Positions 9,846 to 31,412 of a stretch of 32,256 bases of DNA are shown piece after piece; the first letter of the stretch is position 1; the number at the start of each line of letters is the position of its first letter. The position numbers and the translations under genes are program-made. The stretch covers positions 1-32,256 of the forward strand of contig JAIYDC010000005.1 of assembly GCA_027487685.1 (NCBI GenBank), written 5' to 3'. Below the pieces are notes generated by a model. The model searched no databases. It saw only the letters and a list, made by a program, of their open reading frames with translations, and had not been told where the DNA came from. The stretch comes from Pseudomonadota bacterium (lineage in GTDB: Bacteria > Bdellovibrionota > Bacteriovoracia > Bacteriovoracales > Bacteriovoracaceae).

Positions 9846-10204
9846 ATAAAAGATTTTATTTCCTGTCAGCGGTAAATCTCATTCCGGCCATCATACTTGG
9901 CGGAGGCATGACCTTTGATTCTCTTTCTTTGGCGGGCGCTCTTCTCGTTCTTGTTATCAACCATACAGTCTTGGTCAGTATTGTTAAATCAGTGACGAGT
10001 AGTGCAAGCGAGGAAGGCCGTGGCTCGTCGCGGCAAATGACTCGAATTCTTGGGCTCATGTTTTTAAAGTTTTGCCTATTGTTCGGAGTTGTAGCCCTGA
10101 TCTATTTTTATAAGAAAGAACTCATCACAAAACTCTTCCTCATAATCTTTTTCCAATTGATAATTCAGGTCGTAAGTATTAAAAACAATTACCAAAATAG
10201 TTAG
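9827..10204 (+). CDS. AtpI-like ATP synthase assembly protein
   Basis: A 125-residue membrane protein with four predicted helices (about 11-28, 34-55, 73-94 and 101-118) and a hydrophilic basic loop SSASEEGRGSSRQMTR between the second and third. Length, four-helix topology and position directly before atpB fit AtpI/UncI, which helps assemble the c-ring. It overlaps the upstream small gene by 19 bases and ends 9 bases before the atpB start, so the set is one operon. AtpI proteins are poorly conserved, so the call depends largely on context. I leave the symbol blank for that reason. Confidence 0.7.
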   Translation: MEKKEIDKRFYFLSAVNLIPAIILGGGMTFDSLSLAGALLVLVINHTVLVSIVKSVTSSASEEGRGSSRQMTRILGLMFLKFCLLFGVVALIYFYKKELITKLFLIIFFQLIIQVVSIKNNYQNS

Positions 10205-10213
10205 GACACACAA

Positions 10214-10984
10214 ATGAAACTTTTAGGTCTTATCGCCTTATTCTTGGCCCAGTCAGCCTTCGCATCGGGTGGGTTCAACTTTTTTAATGAAGCTTCAGAT
10301 GCAACGCATATACCCGCTCACACACTCGCACTTATTATTGGCTCTCTCGTTATGTTGGTGACCGGAGTCATCTATCGAGCACAGCTGTCTTCGGTAAAAA
10401 ATTACATTGTCCCTGACCGTGGTATTTCAGTTCGTAATCTTGTAGAGGCCCTCGGGCAGTCAATGTATGGAACTGCAAAAACCGTCATGGGCGAAGAATC
10501 TGCAAAGAAGTATTTTTCATACGTTATTTTCGCATTCTTTTTTATTTTGATTAATAATCTTCTGGGTATTATTCCCGGCTCAATGTCAGCGAATCAAAAC
10601 CTCAACACGACTCTCGCACTAGGTATTTTTACCTTTGTTTATTTTAATTTTCAGGGAATAAGAGCCGTTGGTTTCGTAAATTATATGAAACACTTTGCAG
10701 GTCCAATGCCTGCGCTTGCCTTATTAATTTTTCCTATCGAAATTATTTCAGTCTCAGTCAGACCACTTTCATTGGCACTGCGGTTGCGTGGAAATATGGA
10801 TGGGGATCACTTGATACTTGGTATCTTTTCGGAACTGGTTCCTTACCTTGTCCCTATACCGTTTTACGCAATGGGGATTTTTGTAGGATTCCTGCAAGCC
10901 TTCGTCTTCACACTATTAACAATGATCTATATCGGTATGGCCACTGCTCACCACGATCATGGCGATCACGAACACCATCACTGA
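10214..10984 (+). CDS. atpB: ATP synthase Fo subunit a
   Basis: A 256-residue subunit that forms the proton half-channels facing the c-ring. The essential arginine is Arg190 in SLALRLRGNM, and LQAFVFTLL near the end is the usual last-helix motif with Gln228. Differences from the common pattern are Arg192 where RLFGN proteins have Phe, His199 at the position of E. coli Glu219, and a His-rich tail (7 His in the last 11 residues). The N-terminal 18 residues (MKLLGLIALFLAQSAFAS) look like a cleavable signal peptide, which would place the mature N-terminus in the periplasm as the topology requires. TAGGA at 10202-10206 provides the ribosome site and overlaps the previous stop codon. No F1 genes follow. 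Confidence 0.97.
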   Translation: MKLLGLIALFLAQSAFASGGFNFFNEASDATHIPAHTLALIIGSLVMLVTGVIYRAQLSSVKNYIVPDRGISVRNLVEALGQSMYGTAKTVMGEESAKKYFSYVIFAFFFILINNLLGIIPGSMSANQNLNTTLALGIFTFVYFNFQGIRAVGFVNYMKHFAGPMPALALLIFPIEIISVSVRPLSLALRLRGNMDGDHLILGIFSELVPYLVPIPFYAMGIFVGFLQAFVFTLLTMIYIGMATAHHDHGDHEHHH

Positions 10985-11019
10985 TTAGATCGAGACTTTT
11001 TTTTACAAAGGAAAAAAAG

Positions 11020-11256
11020 ATGGAAAACACTACTGCTTTCGTTGTTCTCGCTGCCGCTTTTGCTTTTGCTTCTGCCGTTATCGGTGGAACTATGGCCCAG
11101 GGTAAGGCTGCTTCAGTTGCTCTTGAAGGTATCGCTCGTAATCCAGCTGCTGCTGAGAAGCTCCAGACTCCGATGATTCTTGCTCTCGCTCTTATCGAGT
11201 CTCTTGTTCTCTTCGGTTTCGGTATTGCATTCCTTATCCTTCAGAAAGCTGCTTAA
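11020..11256 (+). CDS. atpE: ATP synthase Fo subunit c
   Basis: This 78-residue two-helix proteolipid forms the rotating ring. The loop is LEGIARNPAAAEKL, and the ion-binding carboxylate is Glu60 in LALIESLVLFG. Gln27 and Ser61 are also present, but Leu62 and Phe65 stand where sodium-type rings have Thr and Tyr, so proton coupling is more likely. The usual glycine motif GxGxGxG of helix 1 is here G22-G-T-M-A-Q-G28, with bulkier Thr24 and Ala26. A strong ribosome site AAAGGAAAA (11007-11015) and highly uniform codons (mostly GCT and CTT) suggest high expression, as expected for a subunit needed in many copies. A terminator follows. Confidence 0.98.
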   Translation: MENTTAFVVLAAAFAFASAVIGGTMAQGKAASVALEGIARNPAAAEKLQTPMILALALIESLVLFGFGIAFLILQKAA

Positions 11257-16834: not shown

Positions 16835-19800
16835 TCATACACCCATTTCCGCCGCAATATGTTTCGCAAACTCGTAAAGCATCTGATGACTCACATGCTC
16901 TTTAAAGAGTGCAATCACAGATGAATCGGGGTTGAGTTTGTAGAACTTCGGTTTTCCGATGAAGAACTTCAGCATCTTATCCCTTAGCTGATGGTTCCAG
17001 TTTAGTATTTCCTGGTCGAAGAAGAGCCCGATTTGGACCCCAGAAACCTTAACCAAACGTACGCCTAGAGGCTGGAAAATTATTCTCGCACGCAGTATGG
17101 CGTAGAGTGATTCGAGCTCTTTTGGGGTGTGGCCGAAAGCATCCGCCAACTCCGTTACGATGTCTTCAAGGCGCGAGAGGTCGTTGCAGTTTGAGAGGCG
17201 TTTATAGTACTTCAGTCGGAGAGCGTGATCTGGGATGTATGCATTGGGGATGTAGGCCGAAAATGGGGCTTGGATCTCTATATTCTTGACCGAGACTTTC
17301 TGCTCACCTTTTATTTCTTGGACTGCTTCCTGGAGCAGGTCCATGTAGAACTCGAGTCCAATGGCCTCGATGTGGCCAGATTGTTCACCCCCAAGGATGT
17401 CCCCGGCCCCGCGGATCTCCATGTCGGAAGACGCCAGCGCGAAACCAGAACCCATCTCTGCGTAGGTCTGGAGCGCCTGTAGACGACGCTGGGCAGTTTC
17501 GCTTAATAAGCGGTTATCTGGAACGATAAAGTAAGCATAAGCTTTCCGGTCTGATCGGCCGATCCGGCCTCTTAGCTGGTGGAGCTGGGCCAGGCCGTAG
17601 GTATCGGCACGATCGATAATCATTGTGTTGGCGTTTGGAATGTCTATTCCGGATTCAATGATCGTCGTGGCGAGAAGTATGTCAGACTTATGGTCGTAAA
17701 AATCATTAATGCGCTTTTCCAGATCACGCTCGTTCATCTGCCCGTGGGTTACGGAGATGCGTGCCCCGGGGACGAGTTTTTTCAGGTAGAGCTCGTGTTC
17801 TTCAATGTCGTGCACTCGATTGTGAACGTAATAGATCTGTCCTCCACGTGAGAGCTCCTTTTCGATCGCAGCCTTAAGTGTAAGATCATCTTCTTTTATA
17901 ATGTACGTTTTTATGGCCTGGCGACGCGGTGGAGCAGTCTGGATGAGCGACAGGTCCCTGATTCCGAGAAATGAGAGCTGAAGTGTTCTCGGGATTGGCG
18001 TCGCGGTCATCGTAAGTACATCTACGCCTGTCTTTAAGAGTTTTAGCTTTTCCTTGTGAGCGACTCCAAACCGGTGTTCTTCGTCAATGATCAAAAGGCC
18101 GAGGTCATGGAACTCTAGTTTGTCTGAGAGGACCGAGTGCGTGCCAATCAGAATGTCCACTTTCCCCTCTGCTACCTCAATCATGACCTCGCTTTTCTGC
18201 TTGGCCGATTTAAACCTTGAGATAAAGTTAATCGAGACAGGAAAATTCTCGAAACGTTTCACAAACGAATGGTAATGCTGCAACGCCAGAACTGTCGTTG
18301 GCACCAGAATGACAACCTGTTTTTTATCTAGAACGGCCTTCATTGAAGCCCGCATCGCGACCTCAGTTTTTCCGAAGCCGACATCACCACAGACCAGTCT
18401 GTCCATTGGATATTGACCCTGCATATCTTCCAAGACGTCGTGTATCGCCTTCTGTTGATCTGGGGTCTCTTCAAAAGCGAATGATAGCTCGAATTCTTTA
18501 AACAAATGATCTGGTGGAGAAAAGGGGAAGCCGCCGCGAAGCTTCCTTTCCGCCTGCAGCTTAATTAAGTCGAAGGCGAGTTTCTTGACCGAGCTCCGTG
18601 CCTTGGTTTTTAGGTCAGCAAATTTCTTTGACTTAAGCGAAGCAACCTTTAACCCAGAGCTGGCCTCGGCATGCTTTTGGACGAGGTTCAGCTTGTAAAC
18701 AGGGACGTAAACCTTATCGTTGTCTTCGTAAAGTATCACGAGGTAGTCGCTTTGTTGGTCTCCGGCCGCAATTGTCTCGAGACCCTTATAGACACCGATT
18801 CCGTGGTCCCGGTGGATTACATAGTCATTCACCTTAAGAGTCGCGATTTGTTCAGCGAAAAGGTCCTTGTGCGAAGCCTTTACCGCCTTAGATTTCTTTT
18901 TTTTGACCGAGAAAAAATCACTCTCAGAAAGAACAAAGATGTGTTCATTTTTATAATAGAATCCTTCGTCTAGCTTACCGAAAGTAAAGACGAGGCGAGT
19001 GCCGAGTTCGGTCAAGCGGTTTTCCTCAAGCAGAAACTGGAGCTCTTGCCTGGCGTTCTCCGAGTTATAAGTGACGAGGAGGTGACCCCTGACGTCGAGC
19101 TCTTTGCGAAGGATTTTCAGACACCCCTTAATGTACTCATATTTATTCTCAGGAACACTTCCCGCCAGTTGAAGCTTGGTCTGAAGATAGGTCTTCATTT
19201 TCTCAAAACTTAAGTGAAGTTCTCGGTCGAAGGGAGTATCTAGGTTGATGGTGATATCGAGTTGATCAATATAAAGTCGCTTGAACGGATATTCCGGTAA
19301 CTTGTGAAGATAAAAGTTCTCGGGCCCTGGTAAGACCGACCCGCTCTCCACCACCATGCTCAGGGCCTCGTAGTCCTCTGACTGCCCCGCGTAGAAACCT
19401 TCAAAGGAATTGAGTGCATTGTCAAAATTGAGGAAGGTCAGCTTTGCAGAGACCGGTAGGAAATCGAAAAGTGTTTTGGGTTGATCGAAGAACAAGGGGA
19501 CGAACAAGGGATAGTTTTCAAAAAGTTGACCCTCGCCAATTCGAGCAAGAAGAAGCTTCCTGGCCTCATACTTGTTCTTGAACGCTGGCTGCGCTTGAGG
19601 AAGTTTCGCCCTTAGACGAGCGGCGTATGGATCCCGAGTCAGGTAGCCGGCACCCGGGATAAAACGGACTTCAGAATAAGTGGTCTCTCTATCTGTTTTC
19701 TGAGTCTCTAGATCGATGAGGTACATTTCTTCAATGAGATCGTCGAAATAATGAATCCGTATCGGCTTCTGAGAGATGGGGTAGACGTCGAAGATCTCAC

Positions 19801-20350
19801 CCCGGCGTGAATAGGTTCCCGGCTCCTCCACAGTACTCGCAGGGTAATACCCAAGATCACTTAACCTTCTCGCAAGGTCGAAGGGGGAAATAATGTCGTC
19901 CTTTTTGATGCTGAAGCTGTTGTTCCGGAAAAATTCCTGATCAGGCCCTAACAAGAGCGCAGCTTCTAGGGTCGTAACGATGGTCATAGGGGCATTAACT
20001 TGAAGGTTCTGCAGTACTGCCCAGCGCGCCAATAAGGTGGCTTCGGAAGTAAGAATAGAGCTATAAAGGCTGTGATTGTGTCCGGGATAGAAGACTATAT
20101 TTTTTATGTGCCTAAGGGAATCGTAGACATCCTCAGCTTCGTCCTGGCCGGCACAGATTATTATGTGCGTAGAGCTAAAGAGTTGCTTGGAAAAATAACT
20201 ACCCGCAAGAAGACACCACTGGTGAGGTGAAACTCCTTTCAGCGAAAGGTCTTGTTGATGGTTTTGAAGCCAGTAATCAATTTTAGCAGAGATTGCACTA
20301 AACAACGTCACATTAAAATCCGATGAAAAAGGTTGTCCTTCCACTCGCAA
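16835..20350 (-). CDS. mfd: Transcription-repair coupling factor Mfd
   Basis: A 1171-residue protein, close to the family norm (1148 in E. coli). The UvrB-homology part near the N-terminus includes GTYSRRGEIFDVYP. The RNA-polymerase-interacting domain holds VNDYVIHRDHGIGVYKG (about 505-520). The RecG-like translocase motor holds GDVGFGKTEVA (about 652), DEEHRFG (about 755), TATPIPRTL and QLRGRIGRSD (about 925). A TRCF C-terminal domain completes it. Mfd pushes or removes RNA polymerase stalled at lesions and recruits UvrA, encoded at the end of the same operon. The start is uncertain: there is no in-frame ATG near the N-terminus. TTG 20350 is the first start after an upstream stop, GTG 20344 is an alternative, and neither has a good ribosome site. 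The stop overlaps an upstream ATG of the next gene. Confidence 0.97.
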   Translation of the reverse strand: MRVEGQPFSSDFNVTLFSAISAKIDYWLQNHQQDLSLKGVSPHQWCLLAGSYFSKQLFSSTHIIICAGQDEAEDVYDSLRHIKNIVFYPGHNHSLYSSILTSEATLLARWAVLQNLQVNAPMTIVTTLEAALLLGPDQEFFRNNSFSIKKDDIISPFDLARRLSDLGYYPASTVEEPGTYSRRGEIFDVYPISQKPIRIHYFDDLIEEMYLIDLETQKTDRETTYSEVRFIPGAGYLTRDPYAARLRAKLPQAQPAFKNKYEARKLLLARIGEGQLFENYPLFVPLFFDQPKTLFDFLPVSAKLTFLNFDNALNSFEGFYAGQSEDYEALSMVVESGSVLPGPENFYLHKLPEYPFKRLYIDQLDITINLDTPFDRELHLSFEKMKTYLQTKLQLAGSVPENKYEYIKGCLKILRKELDVRGHLLVTYNSENARQELQFLLEENRLTELGTRLVFTFGKLDEGFYYKNEHIFVLSESDFFSVKKKKSKAVKASHKDLFAEQIATLKVNDYVIHRDHGIGVYKGLETIAAGDQQSDYLVILYEDNDKVYVPVYKLNLVQKHAEASSGLKVASLKSKKFADLKTKARSSVKKLAFDLIKLQAERKLRGGFPFSPPDHLFKEFELSFAFEETPDQQKAIHDVLEDMQGQYPMDRLVCGDVGFGKTEVAMRASMKAVLDKKQVVILVPTTVLALQHYHSFVKRFENFPVSINFISRFKSAKQKSEVMIEVAEGKVDILIGTHSVLSDKLEFHDLGLLIIDEEHRFGVAHKEKLKLLKTGVDVLTMTATPIPRTLQLSFLGIRDLSLIQTAPPRRQAIKTYIIKEDDLTLKAAIEKELSRGGQIYYVHNRVHDIEEHELYLKKLVPGARISVTHGQMNERDLEKRINDFYDHKSDILLATTIIESGIDIPNANTMIIDRADTYGLAQLHQLRGRIGRSDRKAYAYFIVPDNRLLSETAQRRLQALQTYAEMGSGFALASSDMEIRGAGDILGGEQSGHIEAIGLEFYMDLLQEAVQEIKGEQKVSVKNIEIQAPFSAYIPNAYIPDHALRLKYYKRLSNCNDLSRLEDIVTELADAFGHTPKELESLYAILRARIIFQPLGVRLVKVSGVQIGLFFDQEILNWNHQLRDKMLKFFIGKPKFYKLNPDSSVIALFKEHVSHQMLYEFAKHIAAEMGV

Positions 20351-20471
20351 CGAAGCATCGGGTCAACCTGTACAATACCTCGCCTAATACAAAATAACAC
20401 CTTTCCTAAATTCAACATCTTTTGTATCTTAAAAATACTTTTTTCCGACCTTAATTGAAGTGGAGACTTCC
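20351..20471. promoter_or_regulatory. Divergent intergenic region between mfd and nuoA
   Basis: This 121-base AT-rich gap must hold promoters in both directions. On the minus strand TTGAAT (20415-20410) and TGTATT (20391-20386) are 18 bases apart, each with 4 of 6 consensus matches, a weak candidate for the mfd operon. On the plus strand TTCAAC (20411-20416) and AATACT (20434-20439), 17 apart, are even weaker for nuo. The nuoA ribosome site TGGAGA (20461-20466) is clear. I cannot pin either promoter with confidence. Confidence 0.4.
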
Positions 20472-20888
20472 ATGACACCAGCTCAGATTGATGGCTTGAT
20501 GCCTATTGTTATGCTTATGGGTATAGCGGTTTTGATGTTTACGGGCGGACATTTTCTATCACTACTTCTTGCTCCTAAAAAGCCCTCTCACCTTAAATCG
20601 ACTCCCTACGAATGTGGCGAGTTGCCCGTAGGATCAGCTTGGTCTGCGTTTAACGTGCGCTTCTACGTAGTCGGGCTCATCTTTATCATTTTTGACGTAG
20701 AATCTGTACTCATGTTTCCTATCGCATCGGTTTTTAGGGAATTAAACGATATGGGAGAAGGTTTATACGTTCTCGAAATCTTCTTAAGCTTCATATCGAT
20801 CCTGGTTATGGGCATTGCCTATTGCTGGAAAAAAGGTGACCTGGACTGGGTTAAGTCTTATCAGGTCTCGCTCAATAATAATAAATAA
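20472..20888 (+). CDS. nuoA: NADH-quinone oxidoreductase subunit A
   Basis: From ATG 20472 the protein has 138 residues. TGGAGA (20461-20466) lies 5 bases upstream. A GTG at 20460 is in frame but would overlap that ribosome site, so ATG is preferred. Three membrane helices are visible, with the family hallmark YECGELPVGSAW and RFYVVGLIFIIFDVES. NuoA sits at the junction between the membrane and peripheral arms of complex I and helps form the quinone-channel loop together with NuoH and NuoJ. It is the first gene of a seven-gene operon and is followed 11 bases later by nuoH, not by nuoB as in most complete nuo operons. Confidence 0.97.
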   Translation: MTPAQIDGLMPIVMLMGIAVLMFTGGHFLSLLLAPKKPSHLKSTPYECGELPVGSAWSAFNVRFYVVGLIFIIFDVESVLMFPIASVFRELNDMGEGLYVLEIFLSFISILVMGIAYCWKKGDLDWVKSYQVSLNNNK

Positions 20889-20899
20889 GGCACCGACCC

Positions 20900-22018
20900 A
20901 TGAATCAAACGCTTGTCAGCTATCTCTCTCAATACGAGTTTTATGACATTCTTCTTGGCCTCTTTGGCAAGAATGAGGGCTTTTTAGCCTTCACGATCTA
21001 TCTCCTTTTTACCCTGGCCATTGTTGGCCTATGCGCAACCATTGGCGGCCTAGGAACATACGCCGAGCGGAAGATCTCGGCTGACATACAACAGCGAGTT
21101 GGTCCTAACCGTGTCGGTCCCTATGGAATCCTCCAGTTTCTGGCCGACGGTGTGAAGATGATCACAAAAGAAGATGTGATGCCTTTCACTGCCGACAAAT
21201 TCCTTTTTTATTTAGCTCCCATGCTGGCACTCATTGGTGTGTTCGCAACACTTGCAGTTCTTCCCTGGTCAAGTGGCTTCATCATGGCCGATCTTAATGT
21301 AGGGATCTTCTACCTCATCGCCATTTCTTCACTCGTCGGCGTATCTGTTTTCCTTGGTGGTTATGCATCCAATTCAAAATGGTCGATGCTTGGTGGATTA
21401 AGGGGTGCATCTCAGATCATTTCCTACGAAATCCCCGTTACCATTTCGGTGTTATCGATTACTCTTCTTGCTGGTGGCATGAGCTTTGGAACGATCCTAA
21501 GTCATCAACAGGGTACACCCATCAACTGGTTCCTATTTCATAATCCGTTTGCCTTCATTGCATTCTTTGTCTATTTCATAGGGGCCCTCGCGGAAACAAA
21601 CCGAGCGCCATTCGATCTTCCTGAGGCGGAATCTGAGCTCGTTTCCGGTTACCACACTGAATATACAGGAATGCGATTTGGGTTCTTTGCCCTGGCAGAG
21701 TACATTGAAGTTTTCGTCGTGTGCGGAGTTGGTGCTGCCCTCTTTTTGGGCGGGGGCAATCTCCCATTTAACATTAGCATTGATATCATTCCGCTCCAGC
21801 TAGTGCAGGTGACTGTATTCATGGCCAAAGCCCTGCTTCTTTATTATGTAGTCATTTGGGTACGGTGGACCTTCCCTAGGCTCCGAGTTGACCAGCTCAT
21901 GTCGATTTGCTGGAAATACCTTACCCCAATTGCGATATTCAATCTCGTTGGGAATGCTGTTTGGATGGTTATGTTTAACGGAAAATCCATCGCCGACCTT
22001 GTGTTCGGTGGCCATTAA
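20900..22018 (+). CDS. nuoH: NADH-quinone oxidoreductase subunit H
   Basis: A 372-residue membrane protein with about eight helices. Conserved loops are present: AERKISADIQQRVGPNRVGP and LADGVKMITKED in the first half, and PFDLPEAESELVSGYHTEY with MRFGFFALAEY in the second. These acidic and arginine residues form the quinone chamber and the start of the proton path. It couples quinone reduction in the peripheral arm to the antiporter-like subunits. AAGG (20887-20890) overlaps the nuoA stop codon, 9 bases before the ATG. In complete operons nuoI follows; here nuoJ follows after 13 bases. Confidence 0.99.
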   Translation: MNQTLVSYLSQYEFYDILLGLFGKNEGFLAFTIYLLFTLAIVGLCATIGGLGTYAERKISADIQQRVGPNRVGPYGILQFLADGVKMITKEDVMPFTADKFLFYLAPMLALIGVFATLAVLPWSSGFIMADLNVGIFYLIAISSLVGVSVFLGGYASNSKWSMLGGLRGASQIISYEIPVTISVLSITLLAGGMSFGTILSHQQGTPINWFLFHNPFAFIAFFVYFIGALAETNRAPFDLPEAESELVSGYHTEYTGMRFGFFALAEYIEVFVVCGVGAALFLGGGNLPFNISIDIIPLQLVQVTVFMAKALLLYYVVIWVRWTFPRLRVDQLMSICWKYLTPIAIFNLVGNAVWMVMFNGKSIADLVFGGH

Positions 22019-22031
22019 TTAAGGATAACAA

Positions 22032-22565
22032 ATGTTCGCGCAAGTCCTTTTTCTCATGTCGGCTTTTCTTACCATTGGTTGTGCTATCGCAGTGATGGTG
22101 ACGAAGAACATCATGCATTCTTGTATTTTTCTTCTTGGTTCACTGATCGGAGTGGCGGGTCTGTACGCAACCCTGGGTGCTGATTTTGTGGCAGTTACCC
22201 AGATTATGGTCTACGTTGGCGGTATCGTCATCCTTATGCTTTTTGCAGTCATGCTTACTGGCGGAAAGGACTTTGTATCGCGTGCTCAAAATCTCCTTGG
22301 TCTGGCCCCGGCCATGGGTAACAAGTGGACCTATGGCACTGGTCTATTTGTTGGTGCTGTTTTTCTACTTACGAATGTGAGCCTTTTGATGAATGTTTCA
22401 AAAGCTTATCCAGTGAAGAACTTCGGAAACGAGTTCCCTTCAACTGTTTCAGCAATTGGAAAGCTCCTCGTTAAAGAACATGTGCTCGCCTTCGAGCTCT
22501 CCTCTGTACTACTTCTTGGTGCTCTCGTTGGCGCGGCGATTATCGCTCGGCCAAGAAAGCAATAA
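22032..22565 (+). CDS. nuoJ: NADH-quinone oxidoreductase subunit J
   Basis: A 177-residue protein with five predicted helices. The third helix contains the conserved VAVTQIMVYVGGIVILMLFAVML, which includes the pi-bulge region known to switch conformation during turnover in complex I. It ends 13 bases before nuoK. AAGGATAA just before the ATG at 22032 serves as the ribosome site. Length and pattern are normal for the family. Confidence 0.97.
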   Translation: MFAQVLFLMSAFLTIGCAIAVMVTKNIMHSCIFLLGSLIGVAGLYATLGADFVAVTQIMVYVGGIVILMLFAVMLTGGKDFVSRAQNLLGLAPAMGNKWTYGTGLFVGAVFLLTNVSLLMNVSKAYPVKNFGNEFPSTVSAIGKLLVKEHVLAFELSSVLLLGALVGAAIIARPRKQ

Positions 22566-22578
22566 ACGGAAAAAATTT

Positions 22579-22884
22579 ATGATGGGCTTAACCTCTTATC
22601 TTGTCATCTCTCTGTTCCTCTTCATCACAGGTCTCGTCGTGATGATCTCTAGGAAAAACATCGTTGCCATACTCTTGGGCATTGAACTCATTCTCAACGC
22701 CGCGGCACTTAATTTCGTCGCCTATTCCCGCTACGTAACGGGGAACTTGGACGGGCATATCTTTAGTCTATTCATTATCGTTGTCGCCGCTGCGGAAGCA
22801 GCGGTTGGCCTCGCGATTATAATCCGTTTCTTTCAGATTAAAGAAACCATTCACATCGACGAAGCCACACAACTCCGAAACTAA
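22579..22884 (+). CDS. nuoK: NADH-quinone oxidoreductase subunit K
   Basis: From ATG 22579 the protein has 101 residues, the normal length (100 in E. coli), with three helices. The two buried acidic residues of the proton path are visible in LLGIELILNAAALNFV and VVAAAEAAVGLAIIIR. The frame is open much further upstream, into nuoJ, but translation there gives a polar sequence unlike NuoK. GGA at 22568-22570 lies 8 bases before the chosen ATG. A second ATG follows immediately at 22582. NuoK resembles the MrpC antiporter subunit and links NuoJ to NuoN. Confidence 0.97.
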   Translation: MMGLTSYLVISLFLFITGLVVMISRKNIVAILLGIELILNAAALNFVAYSRYVTGNLDGHIFSLFIIVVAAAEAAVGLAIIIRFFQIKETIHIDEATQLRN

Positions 22885-22893
22885 GGGCACCAC

Positions 22894-25110
22894 ATGGAAT
22901 ATACAGTTGGAAATATTGCGCCGATCTTCCTTGCACCAGTACTTGCGTTTGTCATAAACGCCTTTCTTGGAAGAAAGCTGCCTAGACAGGGTGATTGGCT
23001 AGCGACGTTCAGCATATTCGTCTCTTTTATCTTTTCCGCCCGCATCTTTGCCGACTTCGTATTCGGAAAGTTTGCTACAGATCAATATATTCATAAGACA
23101 TTCACATGGTTTGACCTCACATACGGGGCAAATATTTGGAAAGTCGACATGGGTGTTTACATCGATAATATGGCCGCCATCATGCTTCTCATGGTCTCAG
23201 GCGTTGCTTTTTTGATTCACCTCTTTTCAACGTGGTACATGGATCATGATGAAAAGCATGGTCGCTTCTTTATTTTCCTACCGTTGTTCACGAGCGCCAT
23301 GCTTGCACTTGTACTCTCAGACAACCTTCTCTCACTTTTTATTTTTTGGGAGATCATGGGCTTCTGTTCTTACTCTTTAATCGGAATTTATAATAAAAAA
23401 GAGAAAGCTGGAGACGCGTCCCTTAAGGCCTTCATGACCACCCGAGTGGGAGACGTATTTCTTCTTTTGGGGATGGTTGCGATTTGGATGGTGATTGGTT
23501 CTGTTTCCTACGTGGACATCTACGCAGCTATAGCTCAAGGTAAGTTTGCTGGACAAGCTGTCATGGGAATCTCCCTCGCAACCTTCTCCGGACTATGCAT
23601 TTTTCTTGGGGGCATGGGCAAGTCTGCCCAGTTCCCACTTCATGTTTGGCTCCCGGATGCTATGATGGGTCCAACTCCCGGTTCGGCATTGATTCACGCT
23701 GCTACTATGGTTGCCGCCGGAGTTTACCTATCCCTTCGGATGTATCCCCTGATGGTTCTTGGTGACCTGACTTGGTTTATCGCAGTTATAGGTGCGATCA
23801 CCGCATTTATGGCAGCGACCATCGCCCTTGTGCAGACAGATATTAAAGCCGTTCTTGCTTTTTCTACCATTTCACAGCTTGGCTATATGATGATCGGTGT
23901 CGGAGTAGGTTCTTACAACGCTGCCTTCATGCACCTTATAACACACGCGATTTTCAAGGCTTGTCTCTTCTTGTCTGCTGGATCTGTGATCCATTCGATT
24001 CATGAGCAGGAGATGCCGAAGATGGGTGGGCTTCGTAAATACCTACCCTACACTCATTTTGCGATGATGTGTTGTACGCTGGCCATCGCTGGCATTCCTT
24101 TATTTTCAGGCTTTGTGTCTAAAGACCGAATTCTTGGAGACGCCCTTTATTTTGGCTTCATGGCAGGGCAGAGCCCCCTTATGGCAATTGTTCCCATTTT
24201 GGGTTTTGCTGGAGCTGGTCTGACAGCTTTTTATATGTTCCGGATGATGTTTCTTACTTTTTATGGCGAAAATCGTATGCACCACGATGACCATGGTCAT
24301 GGTCATAAAGATGGCCATAATGATGAAGCTCATGGTCACGACATTCACCACGAGCATCTTTCTGTTCGGCAGAACATCCCTCTCCTCATTCTTTCGGTTT
24401 TCACTTTGGGCTTTTGGTTTGCAGGAACTCTCACTGGCCAGACTTTTGGTAAGGTCTTTGGTGCCAAAACTGAGTGGTTTAAAATTCTAGTAGAGGCTCC
24501 GAAAGTTGAGAGATTTGTTGATCACTCCCGAGAGCTTCTTGGTTCTACTGATACTCGCCCTTCTCTAGAGCTTCCTGTAGCTGTTTATGATCATCACAGT
24601 GACACTCAGACTGGTTACGCAGGGCCAAATCCTGACACACATAAAATCCATCAGGCCCATACAATAGGAGCCATTCTTTCGATCATTATTGCCTTTTCCG
24701 GAGTGTTCTTGGCCTACCTGATGTACATACGAAAATCAGTCACGCCGTTGTCGAGGACATTTTCTAGTTACACGGAGCTTCTTAAGAACCGATATTATTT
24801 TGATAATCTCTATGTGGATATCGTCATAAAGAAAGGGCTACTGCCTTTCAATCGCCTCCTATCTTGGTTTGACATGGGTGTTTACGACCGTTTTGCAGTT
24901 GACGGTTGGGCCAAGGTCAATAGAGTTCTTTTCACCGCTTCTAAATGGTTTGATAACGTAGTCGTCGACGCCATAGGCGTAGATGGAACGGGTGTTGCGG
25001 TTAATTTATTTAATCTTGTGCTTCGGATCGTACAGAGCGGTAAGATTCAGTTTTACTTCATCGTGCTGATCACGGTTCTTGCTTCTTATATTTGGACAGT
25101 AAATATCTAA
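22894..25110 (+). CDS. nuoL: NADH-quinone oxidoreductase subunit L
   Basis: At 738 residues this is longer than E. coli NuoL (613). It is the distal antiporter-like proton pump. Landmarks are FFIFLPLFTSAMLALVLSDN, LFIFWEIMGFCSYSLIG, QFPLHVWLPDAMMGPTPGSA and IKAVLAFSTISQLGYM, followed by ITHAIFKACLFLSAGSVIHS. The C-terminal part should form the long lateral helix that runs along the membrane arm. Some extra length is a His-rich loop at residues 462-488 with 11 His in 26 residues; similar loops are found in NuoL of other bacteria. AAGGG (22883-22887) overlaps the nuoK stop codon, 6 bases before the ATG. Confidence 0.98.
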   Translation: MEYTVGNIAPIFLAPVLAFVINAFLGRKLPRQGDWLATFSIFVSFIFSARIFADFVFGKFATDQYIHKTFTWFDLTYGANIWKVDMGVYIDNMAAIMLLMVSGVAFLIHLFSTWYMDHDEKHGRFFIFLPLFTSAMLALVLSDNLLSLFIFWEIMGFCSYSLIGIYNKKEKAGDASLKAFMTTRVGDVFLLLGMVAIWMVIGSVSYVDIYAAIAQGKFAGQAVMGISLATFSGLCIFLGGMGKSAQFPLHVWLPDAMMGPTPGSALIHAATMVAAGVYLSLRMYPLMVLGDLTWFIAVIGAITAFMAATIALVQTDIKAVLAFSTISQLGYMMIGVGVGSYNAAFMHLITHAIFKACLFLSAGSVIHSIHEQEMPKMGGLRKYLPYTHFAMMCCTLAIAGIPLFSGFVSKDRILGDALYFGFMAGQSPLMAIVPILGFAGAGLTAFYMFRMMFLTFYGENRMHHDDHGHGHKDGHNDEAHGHDIHHEHLSVRQNIPLLILSVFTLGFWFAGTLTGQTFGKVFGAKTEWFKILVEAPKVERFVDHSRELLGSTDTRPSLELPVAVYDHHSDTQTGYAGPNPDTHKIHQAHTIGAILSIIIAFSGVFLAYLMYIRKSVTPLSRTFSSYTELLKNRYYFDNLYVDIVIKKGLLPFNRLLSWFDMGVYDRFAVDGWAKVNRVLFTASKWFDNVVVDAIGVDGTGVAVNLFNLVLRIVQSGKIQFYFIVLITVLASYIWTVNI

Positions 25111-25137
25111 GGTTTCTTTTATAGAGAGAGGTTCGTT

Positions 25138-26655
25138 GTGAACGGAATTTTGAATTGGATTTTATGGTTACCGGTTATCGGTATGGTGGCCGTGATTCTT
25201 ACGCCGAAGGCGAAGGAAAACGCGATCCGCATGGTGACCCTGGCGACGACAACCGTTACCCTAGCGCTTTCGGTTATCCTTTACCTTAAATTTGACACGA
25301 CAACGGCCGACATGCAGTTCGTGGTTAAGTTTCCGTGGATCGAGCAGTTTCATATTAACTACTTCCTCGGTATTGACGGCATCACAATGTTGATGACCTT
25401 CTTGAACGCACTACTCTTCTTTATTTGTACTCTTTCTTCTTGGACAGTCGAAAAGAATGTAAAGGCTTACTTTGCTTTGCTTCTTATGCTCCAATCCACC
25501 GTATTTGGTGTCTTTTTCGCCTTGGACTTTTTTCTTTTCTATGTTTACTGGGAAGTTATGCTCCTTCCAATGTTTTTCTTAATTGGTATATGGGGCGGCG
25601 AGAACCGGGAGTACGCTGCGATAAAGTTTTTCCTCTACACCTTCTTTGGCTCAATTTTCATGCTTGTCGGTATCATCGCCCTTTACTATGCAACCGGCAA
25701 AGGTGTTGATTCCTTTAATATTATCGCTCTTCAAGGTGGTAAGTTTACTGAGCTTACCGTTGACCTCTTTGGTCAAACTCTTTCTTTCGAGACCCTCTTC
25801 TTCTGGTTTATGTTTCTTGGTTTTGCAATTAAGGTCCCAGTGTTTCCTTTTCACACCTGGCTCCCTCACGCGCACGTTCAGGCACCAACCGCTGTTTCTG
25901 TTATTCTTGCAGGCGTTCTCTTGAAAATGGGGACTTATGGCTTCCTCCGGATCGCCTTCCCAATTTTCCCACAGGCCGCCGTTGAATCCTCAACTATTAT
26001 TGCAGTCCTTGGTCTGATCTCTGTCATTTACGGTGCATTCTGCGCCATGGCCCAAGACGATGTTAAAAAGCTCGTTGCCTACTCTTCAGTCTCGCACATG
26101 GGCTTTGTTATGCTCGGTCTAGCCGCAATGACGACCCAGGGAATGAATGGGGCTGTACTCCAGATGTTCAACCATGGCACATCTACGGCCATGATGTTCT
26201 TGCTCATCGGAATCCTCTATGAACGTTCTCACCACCGTTGGATTGTGAAGCCTGATGGTTCTAAGGGTTACGGAGGTCTTTCGACCAAGCTGCCCAAGTA
26301 TACTACGGTCTTCATCATCGGTATGTTTGCCTCTTTAGGCCTTCCGGGACTCTCTGGTTTTATTTCTGAAGCCCTGATCTTCCTCGGTATTTACCAGCGC
26401 TTCACGACGATTACTGTGATTGCAGTCGTTGGTCTATTAATCGGTGCTGCTTATCTCCTTTGGATGTTCAAGCGGATGTTCTTCGGAGAGGTTAATCCTG
26501 AAACTGAAGAGTACGAGGACATGAATGCTCGTGAAGTCTTCTACATGATACCACTATGTGTGTGCGTTATTGTATTTGGAATCTTCCCGAGTCCACTGCT
26601 TAACGTGATGAAGGCTTCCGTTGGACAGCTTGTTGATCTCTTGAGCAAGTTTTAA
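25138..26655 (+). CDS. nuoM: NADH-quinone oxidoreductase subunit M
   Basis: A 505-residue antiporter-like pump subunit. The start is GTG 25138, with AGAGAGG (25125-25131) 6 bases upstream and no alternative ATG at the family's N-terminus. Family landmarks are LFYVYWEVMLLPMFFLIGIWGG, VPVFPFHTWLPHAHVQAPTAVSV and VKKLVAYSSVSHMGFVMLGL, then MFNHGTSTAMMFLLIGILYERS. Conserved Glu (in WEVM) and Lys residues of the proton path are present. It lies 27 bases after nuoL and 12 before nuoN. Confidence 0.98.
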   Translation: MNGILNWILWLPVIGMVAVILTPKAKENAIRMVTLATTTVTLALSVILYLKFDTTTADMQFVVKFPWIEQFHINYFLGIDGITMLMTFLNALLFFICTLSSWTVEKNVKAYFALLLMLQSTVFGVFFALDFFLFYVYWEVMLLPMFFLIGIWGGENREYAAIKFFLYTFFGSIFMLVGIIALYYATGKGVDSFNIIALQGGKFTELTVDLFGQTLSFETLFFWFMFLGFAIKVPVFPFHTWLPHAHVQAPTAVSVILAGVLLKMGTYGFLRIAFPIFPQAAVESSTIIAVLGLISVIYGAFCAMAQDDVKKLVAYSSVSHMGFVMLGLAAMTTQGMNGAVLQMFNHGTSTAMMFLLIGILYERSHHRWIVKPDGSKGYGGLSTKLPKYTTVFIIGMFASLGLPGLSGFISEALIFLGIYQRFTTITVIAVVGLLIGAAYLLWMFKRMFFGEVNPETEEYEDMNAREVFYMIPLCVCVIVFGIFPSPLLNVMKASVGQLVDLLSKF

Positions 26656-26667
26656 GCGAGGTTTCTT

Positions 26668-28134
26668 GTGATTGACCAATTACTTGGTTTCGTAACTTAC
26701 TACTGGCCGGAAATGATCACCATCGTTTTGATGATGACTCTTCTGGTTGCCGAGGCCACGGTAAAAGATGAGCACGCTCCGCGGACAAAGATCCACGTTT
26801 ACACTCAGTTTATGCTTGGCCTTGTCCTGGTAAACCTTTTTCTAAATCTTGGGGAGAAACCGCTACATATCTTCCATAATGCCGTAACAATTGATCCATT
26901 CAGTACGTTGATTAAGATCATTATGACTGCGGGAACTATGGGTGCTATTTTCTTGAGCCACTCCTCACGCGACATCTATACGAACCTCAAGTCTGAATTT
27001 TCCGTAATGGCGGTGGGCGTACTGATCGGTGGAATGCTACTCGCGTCTGCTAACAACATGCTGACCCTTTATCTTGGTATTGAGACTCTCTCGATACTTT
27101 CGTACGTTCTTAGTTCCTTTAAGCGAGATGAGGCGACCTCGACTGAAGCTGGGATGAAGTACGCTCTTTATGGCGGACTTTCGGCAGGGGTAGCTTTATT
27201 TGGAATGTCTCACCTTTATGGCGTTTTTGGATCGATTCAGTTCGTTGAAATGATTGACAAGATTCCAGGACTGGCCGGTCTTAACCTCGCCATTGTTATT
27301 GTATCTTTTCTTATGTTCTTTGTTGGAATTGGGTACAAGATTTCGGCTTTTCCATTTCACATGTGGACTCCGGATGTTTACCAGGGATCCCCGATCCCTG
27401 TGACAGCATTCTTTGCAATAGTTCCAAAGATGGCCGGGGTTGCTGCTTTAGTTCGTGTCTCATTCGTCTTTTTTCAGGAAGGCTCAGCTCTCACGGTGAC
27501 TTGGACTGGTCTGATACTCGTTATTGCAGCAATGACGATGACAGTCGGTAATGTGACTGCGATTGGCCAGAGTTCTGTTAAGCGTCTTCTCGCTTTTTCA
27601 TCCATTGGCCATGTCGGGATGATGATCCTTGGTGTTGTCGTTATGAACGAGGCCGGAGTACAGGCCATTCTATTCTACGGAATTGCTTACCTCTTTATGA
27701 CACTCATCGCGTTTTACATCACGTCATGTTTATCTGATATGTATGGCACTGATTCTTATGATGTATTCCGAGGCCTGGTCTACAAGCATCCTTTGATGGC
27801 CATCATCATGGCCGGTGTTTTGTTTTCTCTTGCAGGAATGCCACCATTCTCGGGATTCGTGGCAAAATTCAATATCTTTTCCGTTATAATTGAAAAGAAA
27901 CACTACGGAATTGCTCTAGTAGCAGCAATTAACTCAGTTATAGCACTTTATTATTACGTCAAGCTCGCGAAGACCATGATCTTTAGTGAGGCGGATGGGG
28001 AAGAGAGAGTTCTTTCGTTTACGACCGCCAATCAAATCGTAATCGTTGCTCTTTTTATACCAGTTCTTTTCCTTGGCATCTTCTGGGATTCAGCGATGGC
28101 ACTGGCCGGGAATGCCCAACTTTTTATCAAGTAA
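26668..28134 (+). CDS. nuoN: NADH-quinone oxidoreductase subunit N
   Basis: A 488-residue antiporter-like subunit, the one closest to NuoK. Landmarks are LYLGIETLSILSYVLSSF, KISAFPFHMWTPDVYQGSPI, VKRLLAFSSIGHVGMMILG and SLAGMPPFSGFVAKF. The start is GTG 26668, with GCGAGG (26656-26661) 6 bases upstream. It is the last gene of the operon; a strong hairpin follows 9 bases after the stop. All seven membrane subunits are now accounted for, and no nuoB, C, D, E, F, G or I is seen in the window. Confidence 0.98.
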   Translation: MIDQLLGFVTYYWPEMITIVLMMTLLVAEATVKDEHAPRTKIHVYTQFMLGLVLVNLFLNLGEKPLHIFHNAVTIDPFSTLIKIIMTAGTMGAIFLSHSSRDIYTNLKSEFSVMAVGVLIGGMLLASANNMLTLYLGIETLSILSYVLSSFKRDEATSTEAGMKYALYGGLSAGVALFGMSHLYGVFGSIQFVEMIDKIPGLAGLNLAIVIVSFLMFFVGIGYKISAFPFHMWTPDVYQGSPIPVTAFFAIVPKMAGVAALVRVSFVFFQEGSALTVTWTGLILVIAAMTMTVGNVTAIGQSSVKRLLAFSSIGHVGMMILGVVVMNEAGVQAILFYGIAYLFMTLIAFYITSCLSDMYGTDSYDVFRGLVYKHPLMAIIMAGVLFSLAGMPPFSGFVAKFNIFSVIIEKKHYGIALVAAINSVIALYYYVKLAKTMIFSEADGEERVLSFTTANQIVIVALFIPVLFLGIFWDSAMALAGNAQLFIK

Positions 28135-28143
28135 TCGTATTCT

Positions 28144-28175
28144 GGGGAGGATCTTAGTCCTCCCCATTTAGTTTT
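28144..28175 (+). terminator. Terminator of the nuo operon
   Basis: GGGGAGGA (28144-28151) and TCCTCCCC (28158-28165) form a perfect 8-bp stem with a TCTTAG loop, followed by ATTTAGTTTT, an imperfect T-tract. It lies directly after nuoN and separates it from the next plus-strand gene, which appears to have its own promoter. Confidence 0.8.
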
Positions 28176-28211: not shown

Positions 28212-31200
28212 ATGACTAAGTATCGTCTTCGGCTCACCAATGGCCGGGTCATCGGTCCATTCGAAAAGCAGGAGCTTATCCTGCTTAAGTCACGCGGACA
28301 CATCCGAGGAACAGAAGAAGCACAGGTTTATCCTACGGGTAACTGGGCGCCGATTGATCAATTAGAAATCTTTTTCGAGCTGATGGGTAGTGAGCAGGCC
28401 ACAGAGGCATCCCTTGGGTCTACCAAAGTAGAAGAAACCTTCGTCATTGATCTTGCACAACTTAGAAGCCAAAAACAGGAAAAAGAAATAGATGCCTATG
28501 GGGATTTGGCCCCAACCCCTTTAGAGCACCTCACTGAGACCGTTCAATTAAATGCCTCTACGCCAGTCTCTCCGGTTATTCCGATAGACTTACCCTCATC
28601 CGACCTACTTATAGACACTAAACCTGGTGATGAATTCCTCTTCCAGTTAGAGGTAAATGGTGAGGAGGTACCTCCGTTAGTTGAGGACGATGGAAAGACC
28701 TTGCTTAATCCTGTAGCTCAGCAAGAGATTGAAAAGATGCGTCGACAGCAGAAAGCTGCGGAGGCCAAGCGCCTGGTAGAAGAAGAAGCTGCTCGTCGAA
28801 AGGCTGAAGATGACGAACGTCTCCTGGCGGTCTACCAAAAGAGACAGAGTGCCCTCTCTGTGGCCGACGACCGTACGCAGGTCATACGTATCGACAGTCC
28901 TTCCCTCCTACGGTCTGCAAGGCAGGCCGAGCTTGATATTGAAGCCGAGCTACGAACTATTCAAAGGCAAGAGAAAAAACGTGAAATTGAAGCAGAGGAA
29001 CTTGAAGACCCTAACGAGGATAATTCCGCATCCAAAGAGAAGAAAAATCGACTTATTCTTATCGGAGCGGCAATGGCGATTCTCTATGCTGTCTTTTTCC
29101 CCGATGAGAAGGCGGTTGAAAGGACATTTCAGCACCTCGAGCCGCAGATTGTTTTTCCAATCCCTTTTGACCAAGCCGACCCTCGGAAATCAAAGGTAGA
29201 GTTTAAAAAAGGTCTTGAAGCCTTTGCTATGGGGACTTATCCAGGTCTGGTTAAGGCGGGAAATCAATTCAAGCTTAGCTATGAAAATGATCTTGAAAAC
29301 AATGAGGCACTTGGTTTCCTTGTCCGTACTTATGGAGAACAGCTCCAGCACTCGACTCGGAAGCTGACTGATGCTCAAACGCTCTTCAATTTGATTCAGA
29401 GTAAAAGGCCCTTCCTACTCCGAGACCCCAATGGTGTTATCGGTATGAACCTCTTTTATATGGCCATCAACCGTCCAGGGGCGGCAGTCGATGTTATTCA
29501 GAAGTACTTAAAGCTTCAGCCTAAGAATGTAACCCAGGACCTCTTTGCGGTTTACCTCCGGAGCCTCGTAAAACAAGGCCGAATCGATCTGGCCAAACAG
29601 TTTCATGTAGCTCTTGCGAAGGCACCTGATAAGAATCGCTACACCTACCAGGCGTTGGTCGAATACCACCTTCTGAATCAGGAAACAGGCAAGGCGATGG
29701 AGTATGCTGCTGAAGCTTTAAAGCGTAATCCAAGACTGCCTGGACTCTATCTTTTAAATGCGGAACTCAATCTTCGAGAAAGAAAAACCGAACCAGCGGT
29801 TCCTCTTTTAAAAAAAGCAGAAGAGCTAGGCCTTGATTTTAATAACAGAAACCGTGCCAAGTTCTTCGAGCTAAAAGGAATTGTCCTGGGTCTTAGACAA
29901 AAGGTTGCTCCGGCGGCACAGGCCTTTCAGAAATCCCTCGCTATTTATGATTCCGATGAACTTCGAATAAAATTAGCAGATCTTCAGACAAGTAATGGGA
30001 CCTTTGAAGCCGCTGACAAGATTATTCAAGAGAGTAAAGCGGTTAAGCTCTTGATACTTGCCCGAGAGCACTACGATAAAAAAAATTATGAACTAGCACT
30101 TAGTATGGCCGCTAGAGCTACGTCCCAGTTCCCTGGTCATATCCCCTCTGAGCTTTTCCTGGCGAAGGTGCAGCAGCGCCTTGGCCAGGCGCGTCTTAGT
30201 TTACAGACGATTGACGCTCTATTGGCGAAATATCCGGATGATAGAAAGATCAATCTCGCCATGGTTGAAGCCTTTATTGAGACTTATAAGTTCAACGATG
30301 CTCGCAATAGGTTACAGATCGTCGCAAGCACAGGCATGCGCGAAACCTGGGAGTTTGCGTCACTGAATGCAAAGCTCTATCAAAAAATGGGAGATTCTCT
30401 TCAGGCCATGTCTTGGTTAAGGCGGTCGATTTCAACAAATCCTCTGAACGACGCCGATATTTTTGCTCTAAGCCAGATTCTTCATAAAAAGGCCAATTTT
30501 GAAGGGGCTCGGGTACTTCTGAATAAGTCTATGGAGCTCGATCCTGTGAACCCTGACTATCGAATTGCGTATGCCCGGCTCCTTTATGAGACACAAGATG
30601 ATCTTGCGGCCATTGGGTACCTTTTGAGTCTTAAAGAGGATTTTGGGGAGAATCCCAAGGTCATGTCCGAGATTGCGATTTTCTACTACCGATCAGGGAA
30701 GGTAAAAGATTTCCAAGATTATAAAAAGCGCTTAGAGAAGGAGCATGGGACGGATAAGATTTTGTATGAATTCCTTATCAAGGCTGCACTGATGGACGAA
30801 CGCTTTGATGAAGTACCGGTACTCGTTGAGAAACTACTTACAAAGGAGCCAGGTGATCTGGAACAGATGATGACAGCTGGCCGTGTACTATTTGATCAGG
30901 GGAAACTGCCAGAAGCCGCCAAGTGGTTCCGGAGGGTCAAAGATAAACTCCCCTCTTATCCAAAGGTACTTTATTTTATGGCAAAAATTGAATTCATGAC
31001 AGGGGATGTCGATTCAGCGTTAAAGAAAATTGAAGAAGATATCAAGGCCAACGGCGAGAACGATGAAGACTTGGTTTTTATGGCCCAGATCTACCAAGTT
31101 AAGGAGAAGCTCGTCGAAGCGGAGAATTTCTATAAACGGGCACAGAAGTTAAATCCTAAATCCTACGATGCGATCATGGGTCTTGCAGATCTTAGCACCA

Positions 31201-31412
31201 AGCGGAATAATCACGATCTTGCTCTTGACCTTTATAAGCGCGCGATGAAGCTGCGGCAGGACGAGCCGCTTGTGCATAAGAAAATTGGCGACGTCTACCG
31301 CCAACTCGGTCAGGGTGCACTGGCCATTGAAGCGTATAAACTGTATCTTGATATGGACCCTGAGAGCCCCAATAAGAGCAATCTTGAATCATATATTAAT
31401 CTCATGCAATAG
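28212..31412 (+). CDS. GYF_2-domain, single-TM, multi-TPR protein of unknown function
   Basis: A 1066-residue protein. Residues 3-58 look like a GYF_2/DUF4339-type domain (GRVIGPFEKQEL at 11-22, GNWAPID at 43-49). An acidic, proline-containing linker follows, then a charged coiled coil (about 169-212). A second charged stretch runs to one membrane helix at 281-298 (LILIGAAMAILYAVFFP). The remainder, about 330-1066, is helical and built from many TPR-like units such as GKAMEYAAEALKRNPRLPGLY and HDLALDLYKRAMKLRQDEP. Basic KEKKNR before the helix suggests the N-terminus is cytoplasmic and the TPR array periplasmic. GYF domains bind proline-rich peptides, so a trans-envelope scaffold is a fair inference. 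The start is fixed by the GYF domain. serS begins 8 bases later, so they share a transcript. Confidence 0.85.
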   Translation: MTKYRLRLTNGRVIGPFEKQELILLKSRGHIRGTEEAQVYPTGNWAPIDQLEIFFELMGSEQATEASLGSTKVEETFVIDLAQLRSQKQEKEIDAYGDLAPTPLEHLTETVQLNASTPVSPVIPIDLPSSDLLIDTKPGDEFLFQLEVNGEEVPPLVEDDGKTLLNPVAQQEIEKMRRQQKAAEAKRLVEEEAARRKAEDDERLLAVYQKRQSALSVADDRTQVIRIDSPSLLRSARQAELDIEAELRTIQRQEKKREIEAEELEDPNEDNSASKEKKNRLILIGAAMAILYAVFFPDEKAVERTFQHLEPQIVFPIPFDQADPRKSKVEFKKGLEAFAMGTYPGLVKAGNQFKLSYENDLENNEALGFLVRTYGEQLQHSTRKLTDAQTLFNLIQSKRPFLLRDPNGVIGMNLFYMAINRPGAAVDVIQKYLKLQPKNVTQDLFAVYLRSLVKQGRIDLAKQFHVALAKAPDKNRYTYQALVEYHLLNQETGKAMEYAAEALKRNPRLPGLYLLNAELNLRERKTEPAVPLLKKAEELGLDFNNRNRAKFFELKGIVLGLRQKVAPAAQAFQKSLAIYDSDELRIKLADLQTSNGTFEAADKIIQESKAVKLLILAREHYDKKNYELALSMAARATSQFPGHIPSELFLAKVQQRLGQARLSLQTIDALLAKYPDDRKINLAMVEAFIETYKFNDARNRLQIVASTGMRETWEFASLNAKLYQKMGDSLQAMSWLRRSISTNPLNDADIFALSQILHKKANFEGARVLLNKSMELDPVNPDYRIAYARLLYETQDDLAAIGYLLSLKEDFGENPKVMSEIAIFYYRSGKVKDFQDYKKRLEKEHGTDKILYEFLIKAALMDERFDEVPVLVEKLLTKEPGDLEQMMTAGRVLFDQGKLPEAAKWFRRVKDKLPSYPKVLYFMAKIEFMTGDVDSALKKIEEDIKANGENDEDLVFMAQIYQVKEKLVEAENFYKRAQKLNPKSYDAIMGLADLSTKRNNHDLALDLYKRAMKLRQDEPLVHKKIGDVYRQLGQGALAIEAYKLYLDMDPESPNKSNLESYINLMQ

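Follow-up and report, generated by a model that had tools for sequence, protein, structure and literature searches.

A complex I membrane-arm operon in a Bacteriovoracaceae bacterium and its likely partner, an unlinked nuoB-C-D-I locus

Membrane-arm operon and peripheral genes in one genome

The window analysed here is the whole of a 32,256-nucleotide contig (C25) from the genome of a Bacteriovoracaceae-like bacterium (G000; 3.79 Mb in 149 contigs, 97.7% complete). At positions 20472-28134 it carries nuoA-H-J-K-L-M-N, the genes of a complex I membrane arm, as consecutive plus-strand open reading frames (ORFs) with gaps of 9 to 27 bases. The operon begins with nuoA, for membrane subunit A (20472..20888, from an ATG, a GTG at 20460 being also possible), and nuoH, for the subunit adjoining the quinone site (20900..22018), followed by nuoJ (22032..22565) and nuoK (22582..22884; the listed ORF, 22456-22884, opens upstream of the likely start). 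Three antiporter-like proton-pump subunits are encoded by nuoL (22894..25110), nuoM (25138..26655) and nuoN (26668..28134). NuoH (with NF004741), NuoL, NuoM and NuoN each score above the curated cut-off of one or more NCBIfam Nuo models and NuoK above that of one NuoK model, while NuoA and NuoJ models are the best matches of A and J, below every cut-off. A first-pass annotation had described the operon as holding all seven membrane subunits and no soluble one, which these data confirm. No soluble nuo gene was seen among the other main ORFs of the window, and family searches of the genome gave no NuoD, NuoF or NuoE match on this contig (no such search was made for NuoB, NuoC, NuoG or NuoI). If the 14 genes were assorted at random, an exact 7/7 sorting by arm would have a probability of 1/3432.

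The genome search placed NuoD-family matches at three sites in G000: a 14-gene operon and an odd set, both on contig C148, and a set on contig C8. The operon on C148 runs contiguously from nuoA to nuoN (A-B-C-D-E-F-G-H-I-J-K-L-M-N) and holds the only NuoF and the only NuoE match of the genome. A second full 14-gene operon was what the first-pass annotation had proposed to look for as contrary evidence, and its presence rules out a single complex I split by arm. On C8 (12134-14889, minus strand) we found nuoB-C-D-I without nuoE, nuoF or nuoG. Despite the full operon on C148, this NuoB-C-D-I is the likely quinone module of the window arm, so that the “removal” of seven soluble genes noted earlier is a relocation as far as B, C, D and I are concerned, with E, F and G absent from the set. 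In the same way, the earlier suggestion that the arm pairs with another electron input holds insofar as it has no NADH module of its own, and is incomplete insofar as the partner is a conserved NuoB-C-D-I and no exotic module. All subunits of an 11-subunit enzyme (A, B, C, D, H, I, J, K, L, M and N) are thus encoded in G000 as a putative cognate set. The pair is not a canonical 14-subunit NDH-1, as it lacks the NuoE, F and G that the C148 operon does have. The likely product of the window operon, in our view, is the membrane arm of a complex I that has 11 subunits and no NADH module, is fed by ferredoxin and is completed by the unlinked NuoB-C-D-I.

The odd set on C148 (L006, 7317-11185, minus strand; also read at L115, L117, L118 and L121) encodes a 492-residue protein, a NuoB-like protein, a fused NuoCD-like protein and a short NuoI-like protein, and stands downstream of the 14-gene operon in G000. 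A role as another quinone module for the window arm is unsupported: membrane genes of its own were not recognised in the stretches read at the five loci, the NuoCD-like protein of G000 lacks the quinone-site motifs searched for, and matches of this kind, present in 31 of the 36 family genomes of our sample (58 genomes in total, 22 of them from outside the family), include one in G034, which has no NuoH match. The NuoB-like protein lacks the Cys pair in G000 and keeps it in G027. Perhaps this set is a retooled relic or an assembly factor. Weak NuoE- and NuoF-like matches beside a NuoCD-like match in G030 (C52:63538-65491) may represent a variant of this soluble-only set with an NADH-type part.

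Conservation and pairing of the two loci

The division by arm recorded in the first-pass annotation is exact across the family as well. Among 31 family membrane-arm loci read, the window included, the A-H-J-K-L-M-N block is whole in 24, always beside a divergent mfd, and the remaining seven are interrupted by contig ends; soluble nuo genes were recognised at none of the 31. The near loci are labelled Bacteriovoracaceae, Bacteriovorax and Halobacteriovorax. On the peripheral side, 49 of 60 loci examined (L051-L098 and L110, Bdellovibrionota-like) carry the C8 type of NuoD; B, C, D and I are all recognised in 45 of these, the other four ending at a contig edge, and no membrane nuo gene was found within the DNA read around the 49. 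The other 11 loci (L099-L109) are labelled Bacteroidetes, Planctomycetes, Planctomycetota or Phycisphaerae. One of them, L099 from a Bacteroidetes-labelled metagenome-assembled genome, has relatives of both loci in a single row, A-B-C-D-H-I-J-K-L-M; L104 and L108 also have membrane and soluble genes together, L100-L103 show I, A, B, C and D, and only D was recognised in L105, L106, L107 and L109. In the single 4.15 Mb contig of G015 the arm lies at 0.28 Mb and B-C-D-I at 3.27 Mb, 1.2 Mb apart if the contig is circular. In G027 (two contigs) the contig starting with dnaA has nuoA 28 kb in; B-C-D-I is found at 2.56 Mb, out of 3.44 Mb. The identical layout in these two assemblies, together with the mfd synteny, rules out misassembly or contamination.

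Across the 58 genomes, a window-type arm and a C8-type NuoD occur together in 41, the NuoD alone in none, the arm alone in three and neither in 14 (Fisher 7e-11, uncorrected for kinship); G039 is counted as neither, although its contig C85 bears a second, unclassified NuoN-like frame. G034, which is 96% complete, has neither. These presence sets, like the slot coordinates below, were compiled by hand from the search results. The co-occurrence suggests that the products of the two loci pair physically into one enzyme. Moreover, no NuoF or NuoE was found in G003, G009, G012, G027, G032 and G035, all at least 90% complete and carrying a window-type arm, and all but G012 have the C8-type NuoD; the enzyme therefore needs no NADH module. 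NuoE, F and G were also not recognised at any membrane-arm or BCDI locus, NuoG not having been searched for as a family. Two NuoF-like matches were considered as hidden NADH modules and rejected: that of G018 is below the nuoF cut-off with no other nuo gene recognised alongside, and that of G031 has neighbours which, by eye, we take to be genes of an NAD-linked hydrogenase. G010 and G033 also have NuoF-like matches, of unsettled nature.

Motifs for cluster N2 in NuoB, the two 4Fe-4S clusters in NuoI, the quinone site in NuoD and the proton-channel Glu and Lys residues in NuoK, L, M and N are all intact, the scored residues presumably having their usual functional roles. Among solved structures, the best relatives of NuoI are chloroplast NdhI proteins and that of NuoL is 6hum_F, subunit 5 of a photosynthetic NDH-1. 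The proposed enzyme thus resembles known 11-subunit complexes I, namely the Desulfitobacterium enzyme encoded by nuoABCDHIJKLMN (PMC11238625) and chloroplast and cyanobacterial NDH-1, in its subunit set without an NADH module, in its intact Fe-S and quinone motifs and in the closeness of NuoI and NuoL to NDH-1. The likeness is one of core subunits, the set compared here; photosynthetic NDH-1 has in addition subunits such as NdhS, L and O. Unlike the known 11-subunit operons, the genes here stand at two unlinked loci sorted by arm, in a Bacteriovoracaceae-like host. Canonical 14-subunit NDH-1 has a homologous core and is encoded in a full contiguous copy in the same genome; the pair of loci described here differs from it in lacking NuoE, F and G and in the position of its NuoD. 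In the NuoD tree the C8 type groups with the NuoD of L099 and Planctomycetes (Shimodaira-Hasegawa-like approximate likelihood ratio test, SH-aLRT, 99), apart from 14-subunit NuoD, and in the NuoH tree the window type is likewise separate from the 14-subunit type. Residues ~462-488 of the window NuoL are rich in His and Asp and could form a metal-binding loop.

NADH oxidation and candidate electron donors

Which enzyme probably oxidises NADH varies within the family. Of the 14 family genomes that lack the 14-gene operon, 12 have a strong NqrB match, versus two of the 21 that possess it (Fisher 8.4e-6; association tables cover 35 of the 36 family genomes, with G020, 59% complete, excluded). As strong we counted E < 1e-90 for PF03116 and E < 1e-40 for PF01855, leaving uncounted weaker matches above the cut-off (for PF03116 those in G017 and G023, for PF01855 one in G002 at 3.6e-14 and the fused proteins of 1,120-1,160 residues). 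A full nqrA-B-C-D-E-F in G027 and the NqrB of G003, G015 and G032 exceed the NCBIfam Nqr cut-offs, which rules out RnfD as the identity of these PF03116 matches; the check covers these four genomes, and the other ten strong matches rest on PF03116. Nqr has also been reported in Bacteriovorax marinus (PMC4014512).

The two NADH enzymes share a chromosomal slot that adjoins a gene for a 951-residue protein, present in 32 of 36 family genomes, and a gene for a 233-residue protein (G000:C148, G003:C6, G015:C1; L007, L238, L240). The nqrB gene lies within 20 kb of the 951-residue landmark in 13 of the 14 genomes having it (2.3 to 17 kb), the two being on different contigs in G031; the NuoD of the 14-gene type does so in 17 of 21 (2.5 to 12.8 kb), the exceptions being G005 and G016, with different contigs, and G021 and G028, without a landmark match. 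Both nqr and the 14-gene operon occupy the slot in G015 and G029, and G034 has Nqr there with complex I absent. Probably, then, NADH is oxidised by Nqr or by the 14-gene complex I, which rarely co-occur, and the split enzyme serves another carrier, most simply ferredoxin.

Candidate sources of reduced ferredoxin are encoded in most of the family. A fused 2-oxoacid:ferredoxin oxidoreductase-like protein of 1121 residues, whose best NCBIfam match is of the indolepyruvate type and below the curated cut-off, is found in 32 of 36 family genomes and in none of the 22 others. Strong PF01855 matches of a second type, identified as KorAB where read (G003), occur in nine of the 14 family genomes lacking the 14-gene operon and in none of the 21 possessing it (Fisher 2.8e-5 for KorA). 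With NADH oxidation covered by Nqr or the 14-gene enzyme, the split enzyme would probably take its electrons from reduced ferredoxin. In the mechanism we propose, amino-acid-derived 2-oxoacids would reduce ferredoxin via 2-oxoacid:ferredoxin oxidoreductases, and electrons would enter at NuoI, most likely from this ferredoxin, and pass to N2 in NuoB and on to quinone at the NuoB/D/H site. Quinone reduction would then power the pumping of protons via H, J, K, L, M and N, a function that the motifs of the window arm predict, while NADH would be oxidised by a separate enzyme, either a contiguous 14-gene complex I, as in G000, or Nqr.

Several observations weigh against this picture. The closest solved structures of NuoD and NuoB are not NDH-1, and the NuoH tree, in which some forks are open and one branch is long, puts L099 and Planctomycetes with the 14-subunit type, which argues against a simple joint history with NuoD; these rows were seen only in part as 11-subunit enzymes. 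G012, G052 and G053 carry the arm without a C8-type NuoD, possibly owing to assembly gaps. The complementarity of Nqr corresponds to four to five changes on the family tree (33 rows, without G012, G019 and G034) and two starred independent pairs, too few for a phylogenetic test, so the Nqr and KorA patterns are to be taken as leads; neither NADH enzyme was found in G018 and G026. As for the donor, no gene for one was recognised alongside the C8 or window loci, and no redox gene beside the C8 set; G026 and G028 lack the fused oxidoreductase, and G035 has the split enzyme with neither of the oxidoreductases searched for.

The lack of a linked donor gene and the case of G035 favour a supply mainly from flavodoxin, an NADPH-dependent reductase or several docking donors. 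So does the literature, where the donor of the 11-subunit enzymes outside phototrophs is described as unsettled and more than one partner has been put forward (PMC11238625). We nevertheless regard a main donor other than ferredoxin as rather unlikely, given that 32 of 36 family genomes encode a ferredoxin-reducing type of oxidoreductase and that the distribution of the KorAB type is skewed, a pattern that reflects few independent changes. Far less probable is a second NADH-oxidising complex I that borrows NuoE, F and G from the C148 operon: G000 does encode one NuoEFG set, but the C148 operon has membrane and quinone modules of its own, and the six relatives with an arm and neither NuoF nor NuoE largely refute borrowing. 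Least probable of all, and very nearly dismissed, is that the operon encodes an Mrp-like antiporter that works independently or the membrane subunits of a hydrogenase. NuoL, M and N are homologous to Mrp subunits, yet NuoH, A, J and K are present with Nuo models as best matches, and the C8 NuoD matches only Complex1_49kDa at E 0.001 and no nickel-hydrogenase model, so that it does not class with the group 4 [NiFe] hydrogenases.

Surroundings of the operon and arm-exact splits in Bdellovibrionota

The window starts inside dnaA and continues with dnaN, recF, gyrB, gyrA, a gene for a tetratricopeptide repeat (TPR) protein, atpI, atpB, an atpE-like ORF, uvrA, pdxA, two peptidyl-prolyl isomerase-like genes and mfd. 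The last (16835..20350, minus strand) is a divergent conserved neighbour and no part of the enzyme. The A+T-rich gap between mfd and nuoA (20351..20471) presumably holds the promoter, which we place there from the layout, as a sigma-70 consensus scan gave 10 sites versus 12.8 expected and none in the gap. Directly 3′ of nuoN, on the plus strand, lies a terminator-like stem-loop (28143..28166; 10 pairs, 6 of them G-C) that heads a list of 17 such sites in the stretch covered by the scan (9.8 on average in shuffles, standard deviation 3.1). The first-pass annotation was also right about Fo genes without F1 nearby: atpI, atpB and the atpE-like ORF lie at 9827-11256, and the F1 and b-type ORFs on contig C109, beside ParA/ParB- and RsmG-like ORFs (small ORFs named by eye). 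Such separation of Fo and F1 genes is ordinary. Downstream of the operon, at 28212-31412, is a gene for a 1066-residue TPR-rich protein with an N-terminus that looks GYF-like by eye (NCBIfam matches far below cut-offs); each of the 19 genus loci (L131-L149) has a relative downstream of nuoN.

The arm-exact split is old in Bdellovibrionota and also affects 14-subunit enzymes. Nine genomes outside the family (G037, G040, G043, G045, G048, G050, G052, G054 and G057) show the soluble genes as a row B-C-D-E-F-G-I, with no membrane gene in the DNA read around it; in G045 and G052 this DNA ends close to the row. G038 and G046 have C-D-E-F-G-I, with B not recognised there. A 14-subunit-type membrane row A-H-J-K-L-M-N without soluble genes occurs in seven (G037, G038, G040, G043, G046, G050 and G054), and both halves are complete in five (G037, G040, G043, G050 and G054). 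The two halves lie at 2.63 and 1.97 Mb in G040, a single contig of 2.66 Mb starting with dnaA, and G037 and G046 carry an 11-subunit-type and a 14-subunit-type membrane row in tandem, with the peripheral modules elsewhere. The split and contiguous types of NuoD each fall into a clade of their own (97 and 99). For NuoH, the contiguous type is a clade (89), and the tree leaves the split type unresolved. A simple arm-split rule is contradicted by contiguous operons in G042, G049, G056 and the family's own C148 type, and by G039, G041, G053 and G055 (L235, L166, L167 and L168, respectively), where C, E and F stay, together with A, beside the membrane genes; in G041 and G039, the two genomes read for this, B, D and G (plus I in G039) are located elsewhere. 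A further locus, L116 (G043:C87), is a hydrogenase-4-like cluster with NuoD-, NuoN-, NuoL- and NuoH-like genes beside a transporter that by eye looks SulP-like.

Why the genes are divided by arm can be answered in more than one way. The membrane row lies near dnaA in G000, G027 and G040, as does atpB in G000 and G027, which may point to gene dosage or timing; that an old break was inherited neutrally is equally likely. For the enzyme proposed here, we judge the chances to be evenly balanced that the exact split has no function and was inherited from the break-up of an old operon. Clusters of nuo genes are commonly split in bacteria (PMC12361115), myxobacteria partition them otherwise, G041 and G039 have yet another partition, and the family-wide layout is explicable by one old event. 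Against this stand the 24 whole blocks beside mfd, with only contig ends cutting the rest, and the arm-exact partition in both enzyme types, whose NuoD stand far apart in the tree and which would thus need two breaks or one very old one. The known two-cluster arrangements differ from the exact cut seen here: the clusters nuoEFJKLMN and nuoIHGDBA of myxobacteria (PMC2330069) mix membrane and soluble genes, and nuoGHIJKLMN and nuoABCDEF of an Epsilonproteobacterium (PMC11238625) likewise mix the arms. It is conceivable, though we think it quite improbable, that membrane and peripheral arms are exchangeable genetic modules in Bdellovibrionota, one or two membrane operons, which stand in tandem in several genomes, pairing with a peripheral module of either the BCDI (ferredoxin) or the BCDEFGI (NADH) type. 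G052, with two NuoH and only a BCDEFGI-type NuoD found, and G053, with two arms and no NuoD match, may equally reflect assembly gaps. If true, exchangeable arms would mean hybrid or switchable complexes I in this group.

The kind of enzyme is already known, and 415 species have been listed with EF or EFG missing (PMC12361115); the phylum-wide arm-exact layout is the new part. Neither an arm-exact nuo split nor an 11-subunit complex I of Bacteriovoracaceae is described in the literature searched, which lacks most subscription papers. The main text of a comparative genomics study of Bdellovibrionota predators (PMC11656739) does not mention NADH, nuo, complex I, ferredoxin or Nqr, and a word search of PMC12827227 gave nothing on either subject. 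The lineage keeps the 11-subunit enzyme while the NADH enzyme of the slot varies between Nqr and 14-subunit complex I. A cultured relative without NuoE and NuoF would permit cleaner tests of both the donor and the function. Moreover, the arm-exact split in both 11- and 14-subunit enzymes represents a natural experiment on the modular making, regulation and assembly of the two arms of complex I.

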